From positions 1 to 64,000 of the forward strand of contig NZ_BJKB01000004.1 of the NCBI RefSeq assembly GCF_010725055.1: a stretch of DNA of 64,000 nt, given 5' to 3'. Positions 48,738 through 57,093 of the stretch are shown piece by piece (within the stretch, counting starts at the first letter, position 1; each line of letters opens with the position of its first letter). Below the pieces are notes generated by a model. The model made no database searches and was not told where the DNA came from. It saw only the letters and a program-made list of their open reading frames with translations. Made by a program: the position numbers and the translations under genes. Source of the DNA: Gelidibacter japonicus. GTDB taxonomy: Bacteria > Bacteroidota > Bacteroidia > Flavobacteriales > Flavobacteriaceae.

Positions 48738-49940
48738 TTGAATTTTTCGCTTTACATCGCTAAGCGATACCTCTTTACCAAAAGCAGTAATAATGCCATC
48801 AATATCATGACCATTATTGCTGCTTCTGGTGTGGTGGTTGCCGCTGCGGCTTTGTTTATTGTTCTTTCAGGATTCGCAGGCTTAAAGGATTTTAGCCTTG
48901 AATTTTCTTCTTTTGTAGATCCTGACCTCAAAATTCTTCCTGCTCAAGGAAAATCATTTTTACTTACGGAAAAAGACTCCACTACATTATCAAAAATCGA
49001 GGGAATTGCATCCTATTCGAGAATCATTGAGGAACGGATCATTATAGAATTCGATAATAAGAATTTATTGGCTTCCTTAAAAGGGGTGGATGAACATTAT
49101 TTGGAGGTGACCAGCATTGATTCCATGATCATCCAAGGCCAATGGTTTGAAAAAGGCAGTGGCCAATTGGTTTCCGGCTGGGGCATTGCACACAAACTAT
49201 CTTTTGGGGTGTTGGATTATGGAAAAGCGCTCAACATCTACGTTCCTAAGCCGGGAGTTGGGCAGATCACTTCAATAAAAGGGGCTTTTAATTCCTTGAA
49301 CATGGTCAATATTGGCGTTTTTGATGTGAATGAAGATCTCAACGGTACTTATGTTTATACCGATATCGTAAACGCACGCTACTTGATGGATTACGCCAAC
49401 AATCAAGTGACCAGCATTGAAATAAAACTTCAGCCAAATGTTGATGAAAGAACAGTTAGAAAAGCTATTTTACATCATTTCGATACCGATGTCATTATCA
49501 AGAATAGAGCACAACTGAACGATTCACTCTACAAGATGTTAAATACTGAAAATTTGGTGGTCTATCTCATTTTTACTTTGGTGATCATCATCGCCTTATT
49601 TAATGTGATTGGCGCTTTGATCATGATGATATTGGATAAAAAAGGTTCCTTGCATACCCTTTATAATATTGGTGCAACAACCAAAGATATCCGACGTGTG
49701 TTCTTCCTTCAGGGGAGTTTAATGACTATTTTAGGTGGATTTGCCGGTGTTTTGATCGGTCTTATCCTTGTGGTGCTGCAACAGCAATTCGCATGGGTAA
49801 TGATCACACCTTCGCTCCCATATCCCGTTAAAATTCAAATCGTGAATATTCTATTGGTTTTGGTAACCATTGCGGTTTTAGGATTGATCGCTTCCAAGAT
49901 TGCTTCCGAACGGATCAATGAAAAGTTGATTAGGAATTAG
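48738..49940 (+). CDS. LolC/LolE-type ABC transporter permease
   Basis: 400 residues beginning with TTG directly after the rbfA stop; MNFSLYIAKRYLFTKSSNNAINIMT is the standard N-terminus of this family in Bacteroidetes. One membrane helix near 20-45, a large periplasmic domain, then three helices (about 270-390) of the FtsX type. It probably belongs to the machinery that releases lipoproteins from the inner membrane. No ATPase partner is adjacent; in Bacteroidetes it is often elsewhere. Immediately after its TAG begins a heptanucleotide repeat. Confidence 0.88.
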   Translation: MNFSLYIAKRYLFTKSSNNAINIMTIIAASGVVVAAAALFIVLSGFAGLKDFSLEFSSFVDPDLKILPAQGKSFLLTEKDSTTLSKIEGIASYSRIIEERIIIEFDNKNLLASLKGVDEHYLEVTSIDSMIIQGQWFEKGSGQLVSGWGIAHKLSFGVLDYGKALNIYVPKPGVGQITSIKGAFNSLNMVNIGVFDVNEDLNGTYVYTDIVNARYLMDYANNQVTSIEIKLQPNVDERTVRKAILHHFDTDVIIKNRAQLNDSLYKMLNTENLVVYLIFTLVIIIALFNVIGALIMMILDKKGSLHTLYNIGATTKDIRRVFFLQGSLMTILGGFAGVLIGLILVVLQQQFAWVMITPSLPYPVKIQIVNILLVLVTIAVLGLIASKIASERINEKLIRN

Positions 49941-50042
49941 GGTTCGGGGTTCGGGGTTCCGAGTTTCAAGATTCAGGGTTCAAGATTCAAGATTCAGGAT
50001 TCAGGATTCAGGATTCAAGATTCAAGATTCAAGATTCAAGAT
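49941..50042 (+). repeat. heptanucleotide tandem repeat (consensus RGATTCA)
   Basis: Fourteen 7-base units run from 49941 to 50038, drifting from GGTTCGG in the first copies to AGATTCA/GGATTCA in the last nine. It begins at the base after the stop codon of the permease gene. The remaining spacer to 50258 has short echoes such as CTTCGTGCTTCGTG and CCCAGCTTCCAGC but no gene. Confidence 0.92.
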
Positions 50043-50258
50043 AAATTTTATCGACTCGAGCGTGACTTGGCACTGAAAAACTTACCATTTACTTTTCAAC
50101 TGTATGGAAGGTGAAATCCTTTTGATACTGTTTTTTTTACGATTAAATCTTCCAAAACATCAATCGTCATCAATATTTATAGGTTCAAATGTACTCTACT
50201 ACCCACTACCATCTACCCTCTTCAAACTTCGTGCTTCGTGCTCCCAGCTTCCAGCTAT

Positions 50259-51251
50259 TTACACAAACTCATAGCCAGCAAAAGCTCCCAGCACCTCATC
50301 AAACGCTGCAAATACATCTGACGCGTCGTCACTCGTCACCATTTTAGTACGATATTCCTTAAAGTTTGGAATGCCTTTGAAATAGTTGGTATAATGTCGT
50401 CGGGTTTCAAAAACTCCTAATTTTTCACCTTTCCAATCGATAGCCATTTGAAGATGTCTTCTTGCGGCATCCACGCGTTCTTCCAACGAAACTGGATCCA
50501 AATGTTCACCCGTATTGAAGAAATGTTTGACTTGTTTAAAGAACCAAGGATTCCCGATACTGGCTCGGCCAATCATACACCCATCCAATCCGTAAACATC
50601 ACGCATTTCCATGGCTTTTTCAGGAGTGTCTACATCGCCATTGCCAAAGACAGGGATATGCATGCGCGGGTTATTTTTCACCTCAGCGATTGGTCCCCAA
50701 TCGGCATTGCCTTTATACATTTGCGCGCGCGTGCGTCCATGGATGGAAATAGCCTTGCAACCCACATCCTGCAAACGCTCAGCAACCTCAACAATTCTAA
50801 TCGAATCATGATCCCAACCTAAACGGGTTTTTACGGTGATGGGCAAATTGGTACGTTTAACCATTTCTTCCGTAAGTTTCTCCATCAGGCACACATCTTT
50901 CAAAATGCCCGCACCAGCGCCTTTGCTCACAACTTTTTTTACGGGACAACCAAAATTGATGTCAATAATATCAGGATTGGATTTTTGGACAATATCAATA
51001 GTTTTCAACATGCTGTCCAAGTTGGCTCCAAAAATCTGAATGCCAACTGGGCGCTCTTTTTCGTAGATATCCAATTTCATAATGCTTTTTGCGGCATCAC
51101 GAATCAATCCCTCACTGGAGATAAACTCGGTATACACCACATCGGCACCATTCTCTTTGCACAAGGCTCTGAATGGTGGGTCACTAACGTCTTCCATAGG
51201 TGCCAAAAGCAATGGAAAATTTGGAAGTTGTATGTCGCCTATTTTTATCAC
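50259..51251 (-). CDS. dusB: tRNA-dihydrouridine synthase
   Basis: 330 residues, FMN-dependent TIM barrel. It reduces uridines in tRNA. LAPMEDVSDPPFR (16-28), the catalytic Cys102 in DINFGCPVKKV, KTRLGWD and ISIHGRTRAQMYKG are diagnostic. The DusB subgroup is likely because it is the usual Bacteroidetes copy, but DusB versus DusA/C is not certain. Confidence 0.93.
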   Translation of the reverse strand: MIKIGDIQLPNFPLLLAPMEDVSDPPFRALCKENGADVVYTEFISSEGLIRDAAKSIMKLDIYEKERPVGIQIFGANLDSMLKTIDIVQKSNPDIIDINFGCPVKKVVSKGAGAGILKDVCLMEKLTEEMVKRTNLPITVKTRLGWDHDSIRIVEVAERLQDVGCKAISIHGRTRAQMYKGNADWGPIAEVKNNPRMHIPVFGNGDVDTPEKAMEMRDVYGLDGCMIGRASIGNPWFFKQVKHFFNTGEHLDPVSLEERVDAARRHLQMAIDWKGEKLGVFETRRHYTNYFKGIPNFKEYRTKMVTSDDASDVFAAFDEVLGAFAGYEFV

Positions 51252-51336: not shown

Positions 51337-51400
51337 ATAGTAATAGATTCTACTTTTTAACCCTTTCATGTTTAATTCTTTTCCTTATAATAATATTTCG

Positions 51401-51408
51401 TAAATTTG
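51401..51408 (+). promoter_or_regulatory. -7 box before the antitoxin gene
   Basis: TAAATTTG matches TAnnTTTG. Transcription would begin close to the ATG at 51414, so the mRNA may have almost no leader. Confidence 0.4.
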
Positions 51409-51413
51409 ATATT

Positions 51414-51656
51414 ATGACTTTAGAAGCTAAAAAATTAGATTTAATAAGTTGGCTGACATCATTGCAAGATGATGCCATCATCGCCCAATTATATGCCATC
51501 AAAAATGATAGCAATTCTGATTGGTATGAGCAACTTTCCAAGGTTCAAAAAAAGCAAATTCAAAAAGGTCTGGACGATTTAGATAATGGCAGAACCATTA
51601 CACACGATGAAGTCATGCTGGCGGCAAGACAGAAAATTGAGCAACTCAAAAAGTAA
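51414..51656 (+). CDS. antitoxin of a type II toxin-antitoxin pair
   Basis: 80 residues (MTLEAKKLDLISWLTSLQDD...). A small acidic-basic helical protein of the addiction-module type common in Bacteroidetes, with the C-terminal ITHDEVMLAARQKIEQLKK helix that would wrap the toxin. Longer reading starting at 50985 would run antisense through dusB and is rejected. The toxin gene begins within three bases of its stop. Confidence 0.75.
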   Translation: MTLEAKKLDLISWLTSLQDDAIIAQLYAIKNDSNSDWYEQLSKVQKKQIQKGLDDLDNGRTITHDEVMLAARQKIEQLKK

Positions 51657-51659
51657 TTG

Positions 51660-51941
51660 ATGCAAATAACTTGGTCTATTGCTGCCAAAAATTCTTACTT
51701 AAATATTATTGAGCAACTATTTGATACATGGAATTTAACCATTATTGAAAGATTTGAAAATCAGGTCAATCTTTTGCTTCATAACCTATCTTTCCATAAT
51801 CATATATGTCCAAAATCGATATTCAAAGATTTACATAAGTGCGTTGTCAATAAGCATATTTCCTTAATATACCGTTTAAAAAATGAAAATTCCATTGAAA
51901 TTGTAATGCTTATTTTTAATAAACGTGACCATGTGTTCTAA
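51660..51941 (+). CDS. RelE/ParE-family toxin
   Basis: 93 residues from ATG 51660. ITWSIAAKNSYLNIIEQLFDTWN matches the N-terminal strand and helices of ParE-like toxins, and KHISLIYRLKNENSIEIVMLIFNKR the C-terminal sheet. RelE proteins cut ribosome-bound mRNA and ParE acts on gyrase; which applies here cannot be told. It follows the antitoxin gene by 3 bases. It looks intact. Confidence 0.8.
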   Translation: MQITWSIAAKNSYLNIIEQLFDTWNLTIIERFENQVNLLLHNLSFHNHICPKSIFKDLHKCVVNKHISLIYRLKNENSIEIVMLIFNKRDHVF

Positions 51942-52067: not shown

Positions 52068-52871
52068 ATGAATTCAATGTGGTTTTCAAAATTTATCCTA
52101 AATTTCAAAGTTCTAAACATTGCTATTTTGACCATCCCTTTTGAGCCTTTGCTATTTGGTTACCAAATCAATATCCATTTGATCTTAGAATATTTGGCGT
52201 TTTTTATCGGCTTCCGATATTATTTGTATTTGCGAAAAGGGACTGAAGACTCCATTTCTTCCATGAATCGCTTATCCATCATTTTGGGTGCAGTCATTGG
52301 TGCCTTGATAGGATCTCGATTGGTTGGGTTTTTAGAAAACCCGATATTTGAATTTACTATGGTCAACCTCATTCAGCTTCTAAATACCAAAACCATTATG
52401 GGTGGACTCTTTGGCGGCTTATTGGGTGTTGAGTTGGCAAAAAAAATCATTGGCGAAACCAGCTCTTCTGGCGATTTGTTTACGTTTCCAATTATTGCTG
52501 GCTTATTTATTGGTCGGATTGGCTGTTTTTTATCTGGAATCAATGAGTTCACTTATGGTAAAGTGACTTCATTCTTTATGGGAATGGATTTAGGTGATGG
52601 CTTAAAACGACATCCCATTGCCTTATATGAACTGATGTTTTTAATACTGTTGTTCCTCTTCCTAAAACAGCTCCAAAAACATAAAAATTTAGAAAGTGGC
52701 ATGCTCTTCCAATATTTTATGATCAGCTATTTCAGCTTTCGATTTTTCATCGAATTTATAAAACCTAATATCTTTTTTGTAATTGGATTGAGCAGTATTC
52801 AAATTCTTTGTCTAATTTGTTTGCTTTATTACCACAAAACCATCATAAATCTGTTCCAATATGCCCGTTAG
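52068..52871 (+). CDS. divergent Lgt-family membrane protein (not canonical prolipoprotein diacylglyceryl transferase)
   Basis: 267 residues, about seven membrane helices. Lgt-like features: GSRL (82-85), GRIG (149-152), HPIALYE (182-188) and Tyr221, Arg225 and Glu229, spaced like the E. coli Tyr235, Arg239 and Glu243. Key differences: the histidine of the FHGG motif is replaced by Met111 (TIMGGL), and the Asn of RIGN by Cys153 (RIGCF). A canonical lgt would not lose these, so the substrate or reaction probably differs. The start is uncertain; the first 20 residues may be too long. Its 3' end overlaps the radical SAM gene by 11 bases. First gene of a three-gene cassette. Confidence 0.75.
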   Translation: MNSMWFSKFILNFKVLNIAILTIPFEPLLFGYQINIHLILEYLAFFIGFRYYLYLRKGTEDSISSMNRLSIILGAVIGALIGSRLVGFLENPIFEFTMVNLIQLLNTKTIMGGLFGGLLGVELAKKIIGETSSSGDLFTFPIIAGLFIGRIGCFLSGINEFTYGKVTSFFMGMDLGDGLKRHPIALYELMFLILLFLFLKQLQKHKNLESGMLFQYFMISYFSFRFFIEFIKPNIFFVIGLSSIQILCLICLLYYHKTIINLFQYAR

Positions 52872-54255
52872 AAAATATACTTATTACGATTTCACCTTGA
52901 GTCTTTGTCATGTGTGCTTGAAACGTGTGGATGCCAAGATCGTCTTTGAAAACGGCAATGTGTTTATGCTAAAACGCTGCAATGAACATGGTAACAGTAA
53001 AGTGTTAATAGCCGATGACATTGAATATTACAAGAATATTCGCAACTACAACAAACCCTCTGAAACGCCTTATATTTTCAACACCAAAACGCATTATGGC
53101 TGTCCTTACGACTGCGGCTTGTGTCCCGATCATGAGCAACATTCCTGTTTGAGTATTGTAGAAGTGACGGATCGGTGCAACCTCACCTGCCCTACCTGTT
53201 ATGCCGGTTCTTCCCCTACTTACGGCCGTCATCGGACCTTGGAAGAAATCAAGAAAATGCTTGATGTCATTGTAAAAAACGAGAAAGAGCCTGATGTGGT
53301 TCAAATTTCAGGAGGTGAACCCACCATCCATCCACAATTCTTTGAGATTTTAGATTATGCCAAAACACTTCCCATCCGACATTTGATGCTCAATACCAAT
53401 GGAATAAAAATTGCGAAAGACAAGGCGTTTGCGGCCCGATTAAAAACCTATGCGCCAGACTTCGAAATTTATTTACAGTTCGATTCTTTTGAGGACAGCG
53501 TCTTGCGCGAACTGAGAGGCGCAGATTTGGCAGCCATTCGTCAGCAGGCATTGGATAATTTGAATGAACTGAATCTCTCGACAACCTTGGTCGTTACCCT
53601 TCAGAAAGGTTTAAATGATCATGAAATAGGAAAAATTATAGATTTTGCCCTAAAACAAAAATGCGTGAGGGGCGTAACGCTTCAACCCACGCAAATTGCT
53701 GGCCGACTAGAACATTTTAATCCAGAAACTGATCGGATGACTTTAACGGAAGTGCGACGTAAAATTTTAGAGCAAACAGAGGTTTTCAATGGTGATGATT
53801 TATTACCCGTGCCTTGCAATCCTGATGCTTTGGTTATGGGTTATGCCTTAAAATTAGGTGACGAAGTCTTTCCTTTGACCCGCTATATCAATCCGAATGA
53901 TTTATTGGACAATAGTAAGAATACTATAGTTTATGAACAAGATGAAATGCTGCACGGCAAGATGATCGAGTTGTTCAGTACGGGGAATTCCGTTGAAGTT
54001 GCCGAAGAAAATCTAAAATCGATTATGTGCTGCCTCCCCAATATTGAAGCACCCAATTTAGGTTATGATAACTTGTTTAGGGTGATCATCATGCAATTTA
54101 TTGATGCCTATAATTTTGATGTGCGTGCCATAAAAAAGTCGTGTGTGCATATTGTGAACAAAGATTATAAGATCATTCCTTTTGAAACCATGAACTTGTT
54201 TTACAGAGATGACAAAAAAGACTATTTAGAAATTTTAAAAGTTCAAGCCTTATGA
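52861..54255 (+). CDS. radical SAM enzyme of the Tes (tetraether synthase, MJ0619) family
   Basis: 464 residues. Radical SAM CxxxCxxC at Cys106, Cys110, Cys113, then SGGEPT (150-155). Extra Cys sets: Cys16/Cys19 with Cys40 (knuckle-like, KRCNEHG) and Cys81, Cys85, Cys88 (GCPYDCGLCPDHEQHSC, with Cys96). Further family marks are LQFDS (205-209), QPTQIAGR (275-282), PCNPDA (318-323) and the late CVH...IPFETMNLFYR segment. This multi-cluster layout is that of archaeal Tes, which joins lipid tails by C-C bonds, and its bacterial homologues. It overlaps a divergent Lgt-family gene upstream and a small membrane protein downstream. Substrate unproven; a lipid or lipid-modified protein is the best guess. 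Confidence 0.8.
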   Translation: MPVRKYTYYDFTLSLCHVCLKRVDAKIVFENGNVFMLKRCNEHGNSKVLIADDIEYYKNIRNYNKPSETPYIFNTKTHYGCPYDCGLCPDHEQHSCLSIVEVTDRCNLTCPTCYAGSSPTYGRHRTLEEIKKMLDVIVKNEKEPDVVQISGGEPTIHPQFFEILDYAKTLPIRHLMLNTNGIKIAKDKAFAARLKTYAPDFEIYLQFDSFEDSVLRELRGADLAAIRQQALDNLNELNLSTTLVVTLQKGLNDHEIGKIIDFALKQKCVRGVTLQPTQIAGRLEHFNPETDRMTLTEVRRKILEQTEVFNGDDLLPVPCNPDALVMGYALKLGDEVFPLTRYINPNDLLDNSKNTIVYEQDEMLHGKMIELFSTGNSVEVAEENLKSIMCCLPNIEAPNLGYDNLFRVIIMQFIDAYNFDVRAIKKSCVHIVNKDYKIIPFETMNLFYRDDKKDYLEILKVQAL

Positions 54256-54452
54256 TATTTATAGAACCAAATTTTGATGGTTTGTTGACCGCTCTTATTA
54301 TAATAATGGTAGGGCCTTCAATTGTATTGGCGATTATAGGTAGCATTCTTTATTACAATCAAAAGAGAAAAGCCGCAAAGGTTTTTTTTATTTTGGCCGT
54401 AATTTATCTCGTCATCAGTTTGGGGATATGTGGGGTTCTAATATCGTCTTAA
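54252..54452 (+). CDS. small two-helix membrane protein of the radical SAM cassette
   Basis: 66 residues. Two hydrophobic helices (about 11-35 and 44-64) are joined by a basic turn NQKRKAAK. Its ATG overlaps the radical SAM stop (ATGA), so translation is coupled. No family recognised. A role as membrane partner of the other two proteins is inference. Confidence 0.65.
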   Translation: MIFIEPNFDGLLTALIIIMVGPSIVLAIIGSILYYNQKRKAAKVFFILAVIYLVISLGICGVLISS

Positions 54453-54594: not shown

Positions 54595-55821
54595 CTAAAA
54601 CTCCAAATCCGCTTCAATTTTTTCGCCATTTCTATCCACTACCACTTTGGTCCGATCACCTTCCTCAAAAACAGAAAGTGCACGCATATAGCCATAAATG
54701 TCGGTAATGGTGCTATCGCCCAATTTAATGACCACGTCACCTTTTAACAATCCCGCTCTGGAGGCAGGCGTGTCTTCCCTCAGCCCATCAATCCGCATGC
54801 CTTTTCCATCAAACAAATAATCTGGTACCACGCCTAAGCCTACTTTAAATCGCGCCATTTCCCCGCTGTCGTCCTTTGTTTTTCTAAAGGCTAATTTTCC
54901 GCTATTGTCAAGCTCTGCAATCACATCAAAAATATAATCTGAAATGAGTTCCATGCCTTCATAATTCAATTTATCGGCATCATCACTCGGTTTGTGGTAA
55001 TCTTCATGTTGTCCAGTAAAGAAGTGAAGCACTGGGATATCGTTTAAATAAAATGAGGTATGGTCAGAGGGGCCTACGCCAGATTCATCTTCAACCAATT
55101 TGAAGCTCTTGTTGACCGCATGCAAGACTTGTTTGAAGCGTGGAGACGTACCAGTACCATATACTGCCAAAGTACTATCGGCTTTTAACCGTCCAACCAT
55201 ATCCATGTTGATCATATAGTTTGCCGTATTGATATCAAAAGTGGGATGTTTCACAAAATAATTACTCCCCAACAGTCCCATCTCTTCTCCCGAAAAGGCC
55301 ATAAATAGGTAATTATTATTCGTGTTCGTTTTTTTTAGTTTTGCGGCTAAATTTAGAAGAACAGCAACGCCACTGGCATTATCGTCAGCGCCATTGTGGA
55401 TGGCTTTATCCTTTTCGCGGTATAATGACCCTTCACCACCATATCCCAAATGATCATAATGGGCGCCAATAATAATTGTATTTTTTGCATTATTATCAAT
55501 ATATCCCAAGACATTGGTACCCGTAATCATGCTGTCGGTGGCTTGGCTTTCAAAAATGACTTCCGCATGCGGATCAGATTTAGGTTTAAAACTAAAGACT
55601 TGGAAATAGCCATCAGTTCCCTTGGGCTGCAACCCCAAAGCTTTGAAACGCTCTGAGATATACTTGGCCGCTTCCTGCTCACCTTTTGTACCGGTTTCTC
55701 TGCCTTCATAGGCATCTGAAGCCAAAACTGCGATATCATCCTTGATGCTTATTTCTTTGACGGTATCTTGTTTGCAAGATGTAATTAAAACTAAAAAAAT
55801 TAATGCTATTATGGATTTCAT
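54595..55821 (-). CDS. M28-family zinc aminopeptidase lipoprotein with C-terminal PDZ domain
   Basis: 408 residues. Signal ends in LITSC, lipidated Cys at 16. Zinc and catalytic residues: HYDHLG, GADDNASG, SGEEMGLLG, NMDMVG and the final HEDYHKPSDD His. A PDZ domain covers about 315-408 (GLREDTPASRAGLLKGDVVIKLG). It acts in the periplasm or at the cell surface on peptides. A TAATTTTG box (55851-55844 on this strand) 22 bases upstream is a likely -7 element. Confidence 0.92.
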   Translation of the reverse strand: MKSIIALIFLVLITSCKQDTVKEISIKDDIAVLASDAYEGRETGTKGEQEAAKYISERFKALGLQPKGTDGYFQVFSFKPKSDPHAEVIFESQATDSMITGTNVLGYIDNNAKNTIIIGAHYDHLGYGGEGSLYREKDKAIHNGADDNASGVAVLLNLAAKLKKTNTNNNYLFMAFSGEEMGLLGSNYFVKHPTFDINTANYMINMDMVGRLKADSTLAVYGTGTSPRFKQVLHAVNKSFKLVEDESGVGPSDHTSFYLNDIPVLHFFTGQHEDYHKPSDDADKLNYEGMELISDYIFDVIAELDNSGKLAFRKTKDDSGEMARFKVGLGVVPDYLFDGKGMRIDGLREDTPASRAGLLKGDVVIKLGDSTITDIYGYMRALSVFEEGDRTKVVVDRNGEKIEADLEF

Positions 55822-55989
55822 GATTATATATGTTAATTTTATACAAAATTAGACATTATTTGTCGTTTTATTATCGAAACCTAAATTGTAAAAATGAAAC
55901 ATTTTAGGTTTTGATGGTTCAGACAGCCCCGATATTTGGCGGGATATTTAATTTATCACACTCAAACCACAGATTTAAACAATCATTTT

Positions 55990-57093
55990 ATGAATCGCTT
56001 ATTTATTGTTCTATTCCTATCCATCGTCGTTACATCTTGTAAAGACGAAAAGAAATCCAGTGCTCCAGTTGTTGAAAATATTGAAAGATCAGATACAGAC
56101 TCGCTGATTTTTCCTGATGAAAAGCATTTCAAATCCTTAAAACAAATCACTTTTGGAGGTGATAATGCTGAAGCGTATTGGAGTTTTGACGATAAGCAAT
56201 TGGTATTCCAATCCAATAACTCCAACTGGAACGTCAATTGTGACCAGATGTTTTTAATGAACGCTGACGATACTTTTGAGGATAAAATGCCACCTATGAT
56301 CAGTACTGGAAAAGGCAGAACAACCTGTGCTTATTTCCTACCTGACAATAAACATATTGTTTACGCCTCTACACATTTAGGTGATGAAGAATGTCCGGAT
56401 GCACCTTTAAAAAAGGACGGAAAATATATTTGGCCCATCTATGATTCCTATGATATTTTTGTTGCCGATTTAGAAGGGAATATCACAGCACAATTGACCA
56501 ATGAACCCGGTTATGATGCCGAAGCTACGGTCTCTCCACAAGGCGATAAAATTGTGTTCACGTCCACTAGAAATGGCGATCTCGATCTCTATACCATGAA
56601 TATCGATGGCTCAGATGTCAAACAGATTACTTTCGAGTTGGGCTATGACGGTGGCGCGTTCTTCTCGCCTGATGGCACAAAACTTATCTTCCGTTCGTCA
56701 CGTCCAAAAACTGATGAAGAAATTGCAGAATACAAAAGCTTGCTCAAAGAAGGTCTGGTACAGCCTACCGAGATGGAACTGTATATCTGTAATGCGGATG
56801 GCAGCGATTTAAGACAGTTGACCAACCTTGGAAATGCCAATTGGAGTCCGTTTTTTCTCCCTGATGGTGAACGTGTTATCTTCTCTTCGAATTTTGAGGC
56901 AGAACGTGGTTTCCCTTTTAATTTATACATCATCGGAATTGATGGCAAAGGATTGGAACGTGTGACCCACAGTGATACCTTTGATGCCTTCCCAGTGTTT
57001 TCAAACGATGGCAAAAAACTCATGTTCTCTTCCAATAGACACAATGGGGGAACTAGGGATACAAATCTGTTTGTTGCAGAATGGCAAGACTGA
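55990..57093 (+). CDS. PD40 (TolB-like) beta-propeller lipoprotein
   Basis: 367 residues from ATG 55990, which gives a lipoprotein signal MNRLFIVLFLSIVVTSC; an open extension of 18 codons upstream lacks this logic. Repeated WD40-like PD40 blades: AEATVSPQGDKIVFTSTRNGDLDLYTMN, GGAFFSPDGTKLIFRSSR, NWSPFFLPDGERVIFSSN and DAFPVFSNDGKKLMFSSNRH. Such propellers bind proteins or glycans at the envelope. The final codons RDTNLFVAEWQD recur, nearly identical, 68 bases downstream. Confidence 0.87.
   Translation: MNRLFIVLFLSIVVTSCKDEKKSSAPVVENIERSDTDSLIFPDEKHFKSLKQITFGGDNAEAYWSFDDKQLVFQSNNSNWNVNCDQMFLMNADDTFEDKMPPMISTGKGRTTCAYFLPDNKHIVYASTHLGDEECPDAPLKKDGKYIWPIYDSYDIFVADLEGNITAQLTNEPGYDAEATVSPQGDKIVFTSTRNGDLDLYTMNIDGSDVKQITFELGYDGGAFFSPDGTKLIFRSSRPKTDEEIAEYKSLLKEGLVQPTEMELYICNADGSDLRQLTNLGNANWSPFFLPDGERVIFSSNFEAERGFPFNLYIIGIDGKGLERVTHSDTFDAFPVFSNDGKKLMFSSNRHNGGTRDTNLFVAEWQD

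Follow-up and report, generated by a model that had tools for sequence, protein, structure and literature searches.

What is a gene for a radical S-adenosylmethionine (SAM) enzyme resembling tetraether synthase (Tes) doing between a gene for a divergent lipoprotein diacylglyceryl transferase (Lgt) and a gene for a very small membrane protein? This question is raised by three overlapping genes in Gelidibacter japonicus, located in the 64,000-nucleotide stretch analyzed here (contig NZ_BJKB01000004.1, positions 1 to 64,000; the window). An original prediction, made from the sequence alone, regarded these genes as one unit that may make or attach an unusual lipid, for example a tail-linked lipid. 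We found that the three genes form one conserved cassette with a wide distribution. In addition, the small protein contains a conserved Cys, which shifts the reading from synthesis of membrane lipids to lipid-protein modification, and we tentatively propose the latter as the function of the cassette.

Conservation and distribution of the cassette

All three genes are on the forward strand. The first (52068-52871) codes for an Lgt-like (PF01790) integral membrane protein of 267 amino acids, recognized by its Pfam LGT match, and the second (52861-54255) for a Tes/TrsS-like radical SAM protein of 464 amino acids with Pfam, NCBIfam and Foldseek matches. The third (54252-54452), detected by an open reading frame (ORF) rule, codes for a two-helix hairpin membrane protein of 66 amino acids, a candidate lipid acceptor that had no Pfam family above cut-off. 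In the ORF list of the window, the Lgt-like and radical SAM genes overlap by 11 nucleotides and the radical SAM and hairpin genes by 4, in agreement with the original prediction. Because alignment of most Lgt-like homologues begins at approximately residue 21, this residue (position 52128) is the probable true start of the first protein. The Gelidibacter pelagius copy, however, aligns across 266 residues. The closest named relatives belong to Gelidibacter, and the radical SAM protein is 98% identical to that of G. pelagius. Compared with two Gelidibacter records, silent codon changes exceeded replacing changes in all three genes (silent/replacing: 77/8 and 104/12 for the radical SAM gene, 24/10 and 34/25 for the Lgt-like gene, and 13/7 in both comparisons for the hairpin gene).

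Linkage was evident within the family. Among 199 Flavobacteriaceae genomes (family assigned from names), the radical SAM gene was present in 24, the window's own included, with 78-92% identity in the others. The Lgt-like gene overlapped it, or ended no more than 154 bases upstream, in 22 of these 24 loci; in L008 it was located approximately 1.3 kb upstream, cut by the edge of the fetched stretch, and in L026 the contig ended. Sequence matching detected a gene for a small membrane protein downstream in 23 loci, and the remaining genome (G113; L025, L148) also had one, which BLAST had missed. Similarly, among 80 named loci, which are the closest of 443 matches, 76 had the Lgt-like gene no more than 1 kb upstream and all 80 had it in the fetched stretch, consistent with the earlier view of a single unit.

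Co-occurrence was assessed in 395 Bacteroidota genomes. Of these, 31 had a strong match to the radical SAM gene (E 1e-100 or better) and three a weak one, and a profile of the divergent Lgt gave 32 matches of at least 235 bits, the next being 112 bits. These thresholds were fixed after gaps had been noticed (E 4.6e-101 followed by 3.5e-55 for the radical SAM protein, 235 followed by 112 bits for the Lgt-like protein), and the two counts were taken to refer to the same genomes since sample size and listed handles agree. All 31 genomes with a strong radical SAM match were among the 32 with the divergent Lgt, and 363 genomes had neither at this strength. Thus, the cassette-type Lgt occurred in 31 of 31 genomes with the radical SAM gene versus 1 of 364 others (Fisher p 2.8e-45, a value inflated by shared ancestry). 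In G230 and G460, both genes were present on separate contigs, and G291, one of the three genomes with a weak radical SAM match, had a divergent linked pair. Two further class samples, with 4 carriers among 98 genomes and 3 among 117, added none that were not already known. Chance adjacency was ruled out by this co-occurrence, including the unlinked cases, together with 245 control anchors described below. The neighborhood survey that had been suggested as a check therefore showed genes conserved together across related genomes.

The Lgt-like and radical SAM trees, judged by eye, had their main groups in common. Both grouped G291 with Actinomycetota, G346 with G313/G555, G460 with G324, and G294 with G564. 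In addition, G445 and G510, which belong to the window's family, were placed in both trees with G328, a member of another family of the same class, as joint transfer of the cassette would give. Branches are long in these trees, and some weakly held placings disagree (L135, L138). In the radical SAM tree, 25 proteins accompanied by a cassette-type Lgt were separated from five others with support 92/85; the labels TES and TrsS in this tree are loose, as TES rows score 494 and 442 bits against a cut-off of 450. The cassette Lgt-like proteins formed one group separate from canonical Lgt (support 96/98).

Several other gene orders were observed beyond the close relatives. Five genomes of one family (G210, G290, G399, G453 and G494) had the order Lgt-like, hairpin, radical SAM, the hairpin gene closely preceding the radical SAM gene. 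The two enzyme genes of G291 flank a membrane ORF that has the same terminal Cys. At three distant loci the order was radical SAM, DUF4395 gene, Lgt-like, small membrane protein. DUF4395 genes between the radical SAM and Lgt-like genes were located at 4784-5858 in L144 (a region that also holds an isoprenylcysteine-methyltransferase (ICMT)-family gene preceding the DUF4395 gene), 9518-10516 in L142 and 9271-9951 in L143. A plasmid search detected the set on Persicobacter pPP1. Plasmids of Mycobacterium avium subsp. hominissuis and M. branderi carried an Lgt-like gene, two genes for small proteins and a radical SAM gene, in this order, and in Nonomuraea the Lgt-like gene overlapped the radical SAM gene. 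Among the titles listed in searches of open-access PubMed Central, none concerned a pairing of diacylglyceryl transferase or Lgt homologues with a radical SAM or tetraether enzyme, and to our knowledge the cassette has not been described. The superfamily of each enzyme is already known, but beyond the broad Pfam domain models neither protein reaches the curated cut-off of its nearest named NCBIfam family.

The radical SAM and Lgt-like proteins

The radical SAM protein matched Radical_SAM (91 bits) and Zn_ribbon_HMPTM (67 bits) in Pfam, and contained an N-terminal zinc-ribbon/rubredoxin-like motif, an N-auxiliary motif, the radical SAM motif and a candidate C-terminal cluster motif. The extended Cys layout noted originally (Cys16/19/40, Cys81/85/88/96 and Cys106/110/113) is present and nearly invariant. 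In an alignment of 128 sequences, which include a few non-cassette proteins, ligand residues were conserved as follows: Cys16 and Cys19 in 127, Cys40 in 128, Cys81/Cys85/Cys88 in 121 and Cys106/Cys110/Cys113 in 128. The predicted structure (pLDDT 82, with residues 368-400 below 50) was matched by Foldseek end to end to Methanocaldococcus jannaschii tetraether synthase (7tom/7tol; E 2.5e-37, TMq 0.79, 497 columns). Other radical SAM enzymes listed by Foldseek, including maturases of ribosomally synthesized and post-translationally modified peptides (RiPPs), had TMq below 0.4, and a SPASM domain was not found among Pfam matches up to E 1.

Although a whole Tes fold agrees with the original description of this protein as Tes-like, scores and motifs set it apart from Tes itself. 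It scored 285 bits against a cut-off of 450 for Tes (NF045702), and 326 bits against 490 for TrsS (NF045646), its best full-length NCBIfam match. Six cassette relatives scored 143-304 and 193-359 bits, respectively. Tes and TrsS are thus the closest families by profile search, with the protein below both cut-offs, and TrsS, which the original prediction overlooked, is nearer than Tes. In the available portion of PMC13188914, TrsS is named once, apparently in a table row. By alignment, Met411 corresponds to Tes Met439 and Ile431 to Tes Tyr459 (Tes numbering converted from the accessible part of PMC9433317), Ser427-Cys428 corresponds to the Tes CC pair, and the Tes PFC is replaced by PFE (Glu442), such that the first Cys of the pair and the PFC Cys are both missing. 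Two additional Cys residues were present, Cys319 (126/128) and Cys390 (118/128). Strict Tes membership was rejected on these score and motif differences. Because the ribbon and cluster ligands are kept but the C-terminal Cys pattern is altered, the protein is, as judged from alignment and model, a Tes-fold enzyme of a separate subgroup with other candidate C-terminal cluster ligands.

A different Bacteroidota protein, L146 (G261:C91, 7864-9321), scored 494 bits with the Tes model, above the cut-off of 450, and no Lgt-like gene was found beside it. This Tes-level protein without an adjoining Lgt places the cassette enzyme on a different branch, and its profile score suggests that L146 would be a better candidate than the cassette enzyme for true tail coupling in Bacteroidota. 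In addition, related radical SAM genes, each followed by a methyltransferase gene, were observed on a Mycolicibacterium and two haloarchaeal plasmids (L201, L202, L205), with an Lgt-like gene absent from the fetched stretch. Both proteins scored in this set (L201 and L202) were below the TrsS cut-off.

The Lgt-like protein exceeded the Pfam LGT cut-off (86 bits versus 24.9) and was below that of TIGR00544 lgt (40 versus 118.9). Its AF2 model had pLDDT 90.6, and the only significant match in the PDB was Escherichia coli Lgt (5azb; E 2.1e-5, TMq 0.60). Structure prediction, proposed earlier as a check of the active site, thus gave an Lgt fold with altered catalytic residues. Full activity of E. 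coli Lgt needs His103, Asn146, Tyr235, Arg143 and Arg239, and an Arg/Tyr/Glu network holds the lipid head group (available parts of PMC8689077 and PMC4728403); the active site faces the periplasmic side (same portion of PMC4728403). As originally noted, the His of the FHGG motif (His103) is replaced by Met111 (52398-52400 by alignment) and the Asn of RIGN by Cys153. Among 129 aligned sequences, including a few non-cassette proteins, the His103 site was occupied by Met in 101, Val in 14, Leu in 5, Tyr in 3, Ala in 2, Ile in 2, Thr in 1 and His in 1; the three with Tyr (L188, L189, L192) and the one with His (L191) are non-cassette proteins. The sequence Arg150-Ile-Gly-Cys153 (52515-52526) contains the equivalent of Arg143 (129/129) and a Cys at the position of the essential Asn146 (128/129), the single Asn being that of L191, a canonical Lgt which passed the threshold. 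Tyr221, Arg225 and Glu229 (52728-52754), which correspond to Tyr235, Arg239 and Glu243 of the head-group pocket, are also retained (Tyr in 127, Arg in 129, and Glu in 123 with Asp in 6, of 129).

The three sequences with Tyr in place of His and Cys in place of Asn146 are Bacteroidota Lgt paralogues (L188, 8561-9304; L189, 8019-8810; L192, 7687-8604), and no radical SAM match of the cassette family was found in their fetched stretches. Another PF01790 protein with a higher score was present in all 12 genomes tested that contain a cassette-type Lgt, and a higher-scoring Lgt is located elsewhere in the window's genome. The cassette copy is therefore an extra one, and lipoprotein processing need not depend on it.

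The hairpin protein and its conserved cysteine

The third gene had been described as coding for a small membrane protein; this stands, as the product is a predicted membrane hairpin, and its conserved Cys and tandem copies had been overlooked. In a hand-picked set of 26 hairpin proteins, drawn from Bacteroidota and Actinomycetota mostly after the Cys had been noticed, only Met1 and this Cys were invariant, with a mean column identity of 15%. In the window protein it is Cys60 (54429-54431), located where helix 2 is predicted to end on the periplasmic side. We further measured spacing, charge and neighboring residues in 141 distinct homologues, selected for [GS]xC near the end and thus having the Cys by construction. 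The last Lys or Arg was found 17 residues before the Cys in 111 of 141 proteins; in the window it is Lys43 (54378-54380), the last basic residue of the predicted cytosolic loop. Mean numbers of Lys/Arg were 0.31 in the first 14 residues, 4.55 in the loop and 0.04 after the Cys. By the positive-inside rule, this pattern predicts that both ends of the hairpin are outside and the Cys is on the periplasmic side.

The most common residues before the Cys were I-S-L-G-I, and the most common residue after it was Gly. L-[ASTVIG]-x-C was present in 103 of 141 hairpins, and a residue of [AGS] at position -1 in 6 of 141; the window hairpin has Ile there. Signal peptidase II prefers a small residue before the Cys. 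A plain lipobox was ruled out, considering the rarity of [AGS] at -1 and the location of the Cys in the second hydrophobic stretch. In two adjoining predicted lipoproteins (ORFs 54595-55821 and 55936-57093), the spacing was 14 by eye.

A fixed ORF rule, written after the motif had been noticed, detected an adjacent hairpin in 27 of the 31 genomes versus 1 of 245 control anchors. Two of the four genomes missed do hold a Cys-containing hairpin, with a tail of one residue in G453 and an 80-base overlap in G555, and in G401 the genes are at a contig edge. Candidate ORFs were found in 101 of 106 loci scanned. Hairpin copies were matched two or more times in 46 of 131 loci scanned, and three times in 4. 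A profile search of the window's genome for unlinked hairpins found only the known copy; this argues only weakly against further copies, as the same profile missed the G460 hairpin that the ORF rule had detected. Profile matches in G215 and G230 and a second match in G346 had E 0.02 or worse and were left uncounted. Conservation of the Cys in these otherwise variable sequences suggests that the hairpin is likely an acceptor.

Other genes in the vicinity were recognized by eye. Two small toxin-antitoxin-like ORFs are located upstream of the cassette (51350-51941), and genes similar to dusB, rbfA, an FtsX/LolC-type permease and lepA are found at 48738-51251 and downstream. Each of the latter four was present in 59-63 of the 80 close loci (L053-L132) at varying distance. 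They were assumed to reflect a common chromosomal site and were not counted as parts of the cassette.

Possible functions and comparison with known systems

Based on linkage, co-occurrence, predicted folds, residue conservation and the hairpin charge pattern, the reading that we tentatively favor is lipid-protein modification, with the altered Lgt adding a lipid to the hairpin Cys and the radical enzyme tailoring this lipid. The hairpin would be the acceptor, its second helix rising from the Lys-rich cytosolic loop and presenting one Cys near the periplasmic face, and would probably stay uncleaved as it lacks a small residue before this Cys. The Lgt-like protein, having kept the head-group pocket, may move a lipid or part of it onto the hairpin Cys; this proposal is made because the lipid pocket is retained and the predicted location of the Cys matches that of the Lgt active site. 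The transfer chemistry would differ from that of Lgt, with an active-site Cys in place of Asn and no His. The Tes-fold radical SAM enzyme could alter the alkyl chain of this lipid, either prior to transfer or once the lipid is attached. Diverged tandem hairpins would fit several substrates for one enzyme.

Several observations argue against this proposal. E. coli Lgt mutants of His103 and Asn146 are inactive (accessible portions of PMC8689077 and PMC4728403). As both residues are needed there, the Lgt-like protein may transfer no lipid; this loss weighs most heavily against the proposal, and the role of the Lgt-like protein may instead be non-catalytic. Presumably, the radical SAM protein is in the cytosol and the Cys on the periplasmic side, so that the two could meet only via the lipid. 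Among the 395 genomes, G215 alone had a cassette-type Lgt (L185; G215:C10, 8653-9498) with no radical SAM match, and this gene is possibly a relic. G230 contained both enzymes with no hairpin beside them and a genome match of only E 0.04, and a hairpin was looked for at the Nonomuraea locus and not found. In addition, the first hairpin was truncated or lacked the Cys in six loci (two identical in sequence), each beside a Cys-containing copy.

Somewhat less probable than lipidation of the hairpin, and still a serious possibility, is a membrane-lipid tailoring complex, in which the radical SAM enzyme changes tails of bulk phospholipids (e.g., by coupling, desaturation or thiolation) and the Lgt-like and hairpin proteins are non-catalytic docking or lipid-presenting subunits. 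The whole Tes fold is consistent with this, since Tes binds phospholipids, acts on their tails and cross-couples them (available part of PMC9433317), and loss of His and Asn with retention of the head-group pocket suits lipid binding without transfer. However, neither a Cys as the sole invariant residue nor the presence of up to three diverged copies would be expected of a docking subunit.

It is unlikely that the cassette carries out RiPP-like peptide maturation, with the radical SAM enzyme modifying the hairpin itself and the Lgt-like protein as an accessory. A small, fast-evolving, tandem-copied gene next to a radical SAM gene does resemble a precursor peptide gene, but the enzyme has the Tes fold end to end, without a SPASM domain among its matches, and the hairpin is predicted to be membrane-embedded with its Cys on the side away from the cytosol. 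Slightly more doubtful is a ping-pong S-acylation, in the manner of DHHC acyltransferases, whereby an acyl chain moves from a phospholipid to Cys153 and on to the hairpin Cys, with the chain altered by the radical enzyme. Every cassette Lgt-like protein examined has Cys153, at the position of Asn146 in the head-group network (as described in the accessible text of PMC4728403); however, the non-cassette L188, L189 and L192 share this Cys, which is thus not cassette-specific. Finally, the strict first reading, with tail-linked (membrane-spanning) lipids as the product, as for Tes or Mss, is very improbable: it draws on the Tes fold and known activity of Tes, but the score below the Tes cut-off, the existence of a separate Bacteroidota protein above it, the changes at Ser427, Glu442 and Ile431, and the added Cys319 and Cys390 speak against it. 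A lipid-related function in the wider sense of the original prediction nevertheless remains plausible.

Within the favored lipid-protein modification, a stronger version, to which we assign a rather low probability, is a new protein lipidation in Bacteroidota and on mycobacterial plasmids, in which an Lgt descendant with an active-site Cys adds a lipid, its tail rebuilt by a Tes-fold radical enzyme, to the periplasmic Cys of a dedicated transmembrane hairpin rather than of a signal peptide; the attached lipid would possibly span the bilayer, tethered to protein. If the hairpin Cys does carry a lipid, proteins would be lipidated in a further way that does not involve the lipobox pathway, and radical C-H chemistry would have a new role in the membranes of ordinary mesophiles. 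Surveys have counted bacterial Tes homologues as possible makers of membrane-spanning lipids (available portions of PMC8941075 and PMC11868695). As one branch of bacterial Tes relatives is tied to an Lgt-like protein and a Cys-containing hairpin, such counts could mislead.

The cassette proteins compare with known systems as follows. Similar to Tes/GDGT-MAS (MJ0619; 7tol/7tom), the radical SAM protein has the whole fold, the CxxC-C-xxH ribbon, the N-auxiliary cluster motif, CxxxCxxC, the DAYNFD and IIPF stretches, and Met411 where Tes has Met439; it differs from Tes in score and in the C-terminal residues described above, and the cassette enzyme is tied genetically to Lgt-like and hairpin genes. 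The Lgt-like protein shares with E. coli Lgt (5azb) the fold, the RHPxxLYE sequence and equivalents of Arg143, Tyr235, Arg239 and Glu243, but it lacks His103, has Cys for Asn146, falls below TIGR00544 and belongs to a group separate from canonical Lgt. Like a lipoprotein signal peptide, the hairpin contains a basic stretch, a hydrophobic helix, often Leu at -3 and a Cys near the predicted periplasmic end; unlike a lipobox, this Cys is in a second helix, preceded mostly by Ile or Val rather than Gly, Ala or Ser, at a spacing of 17.

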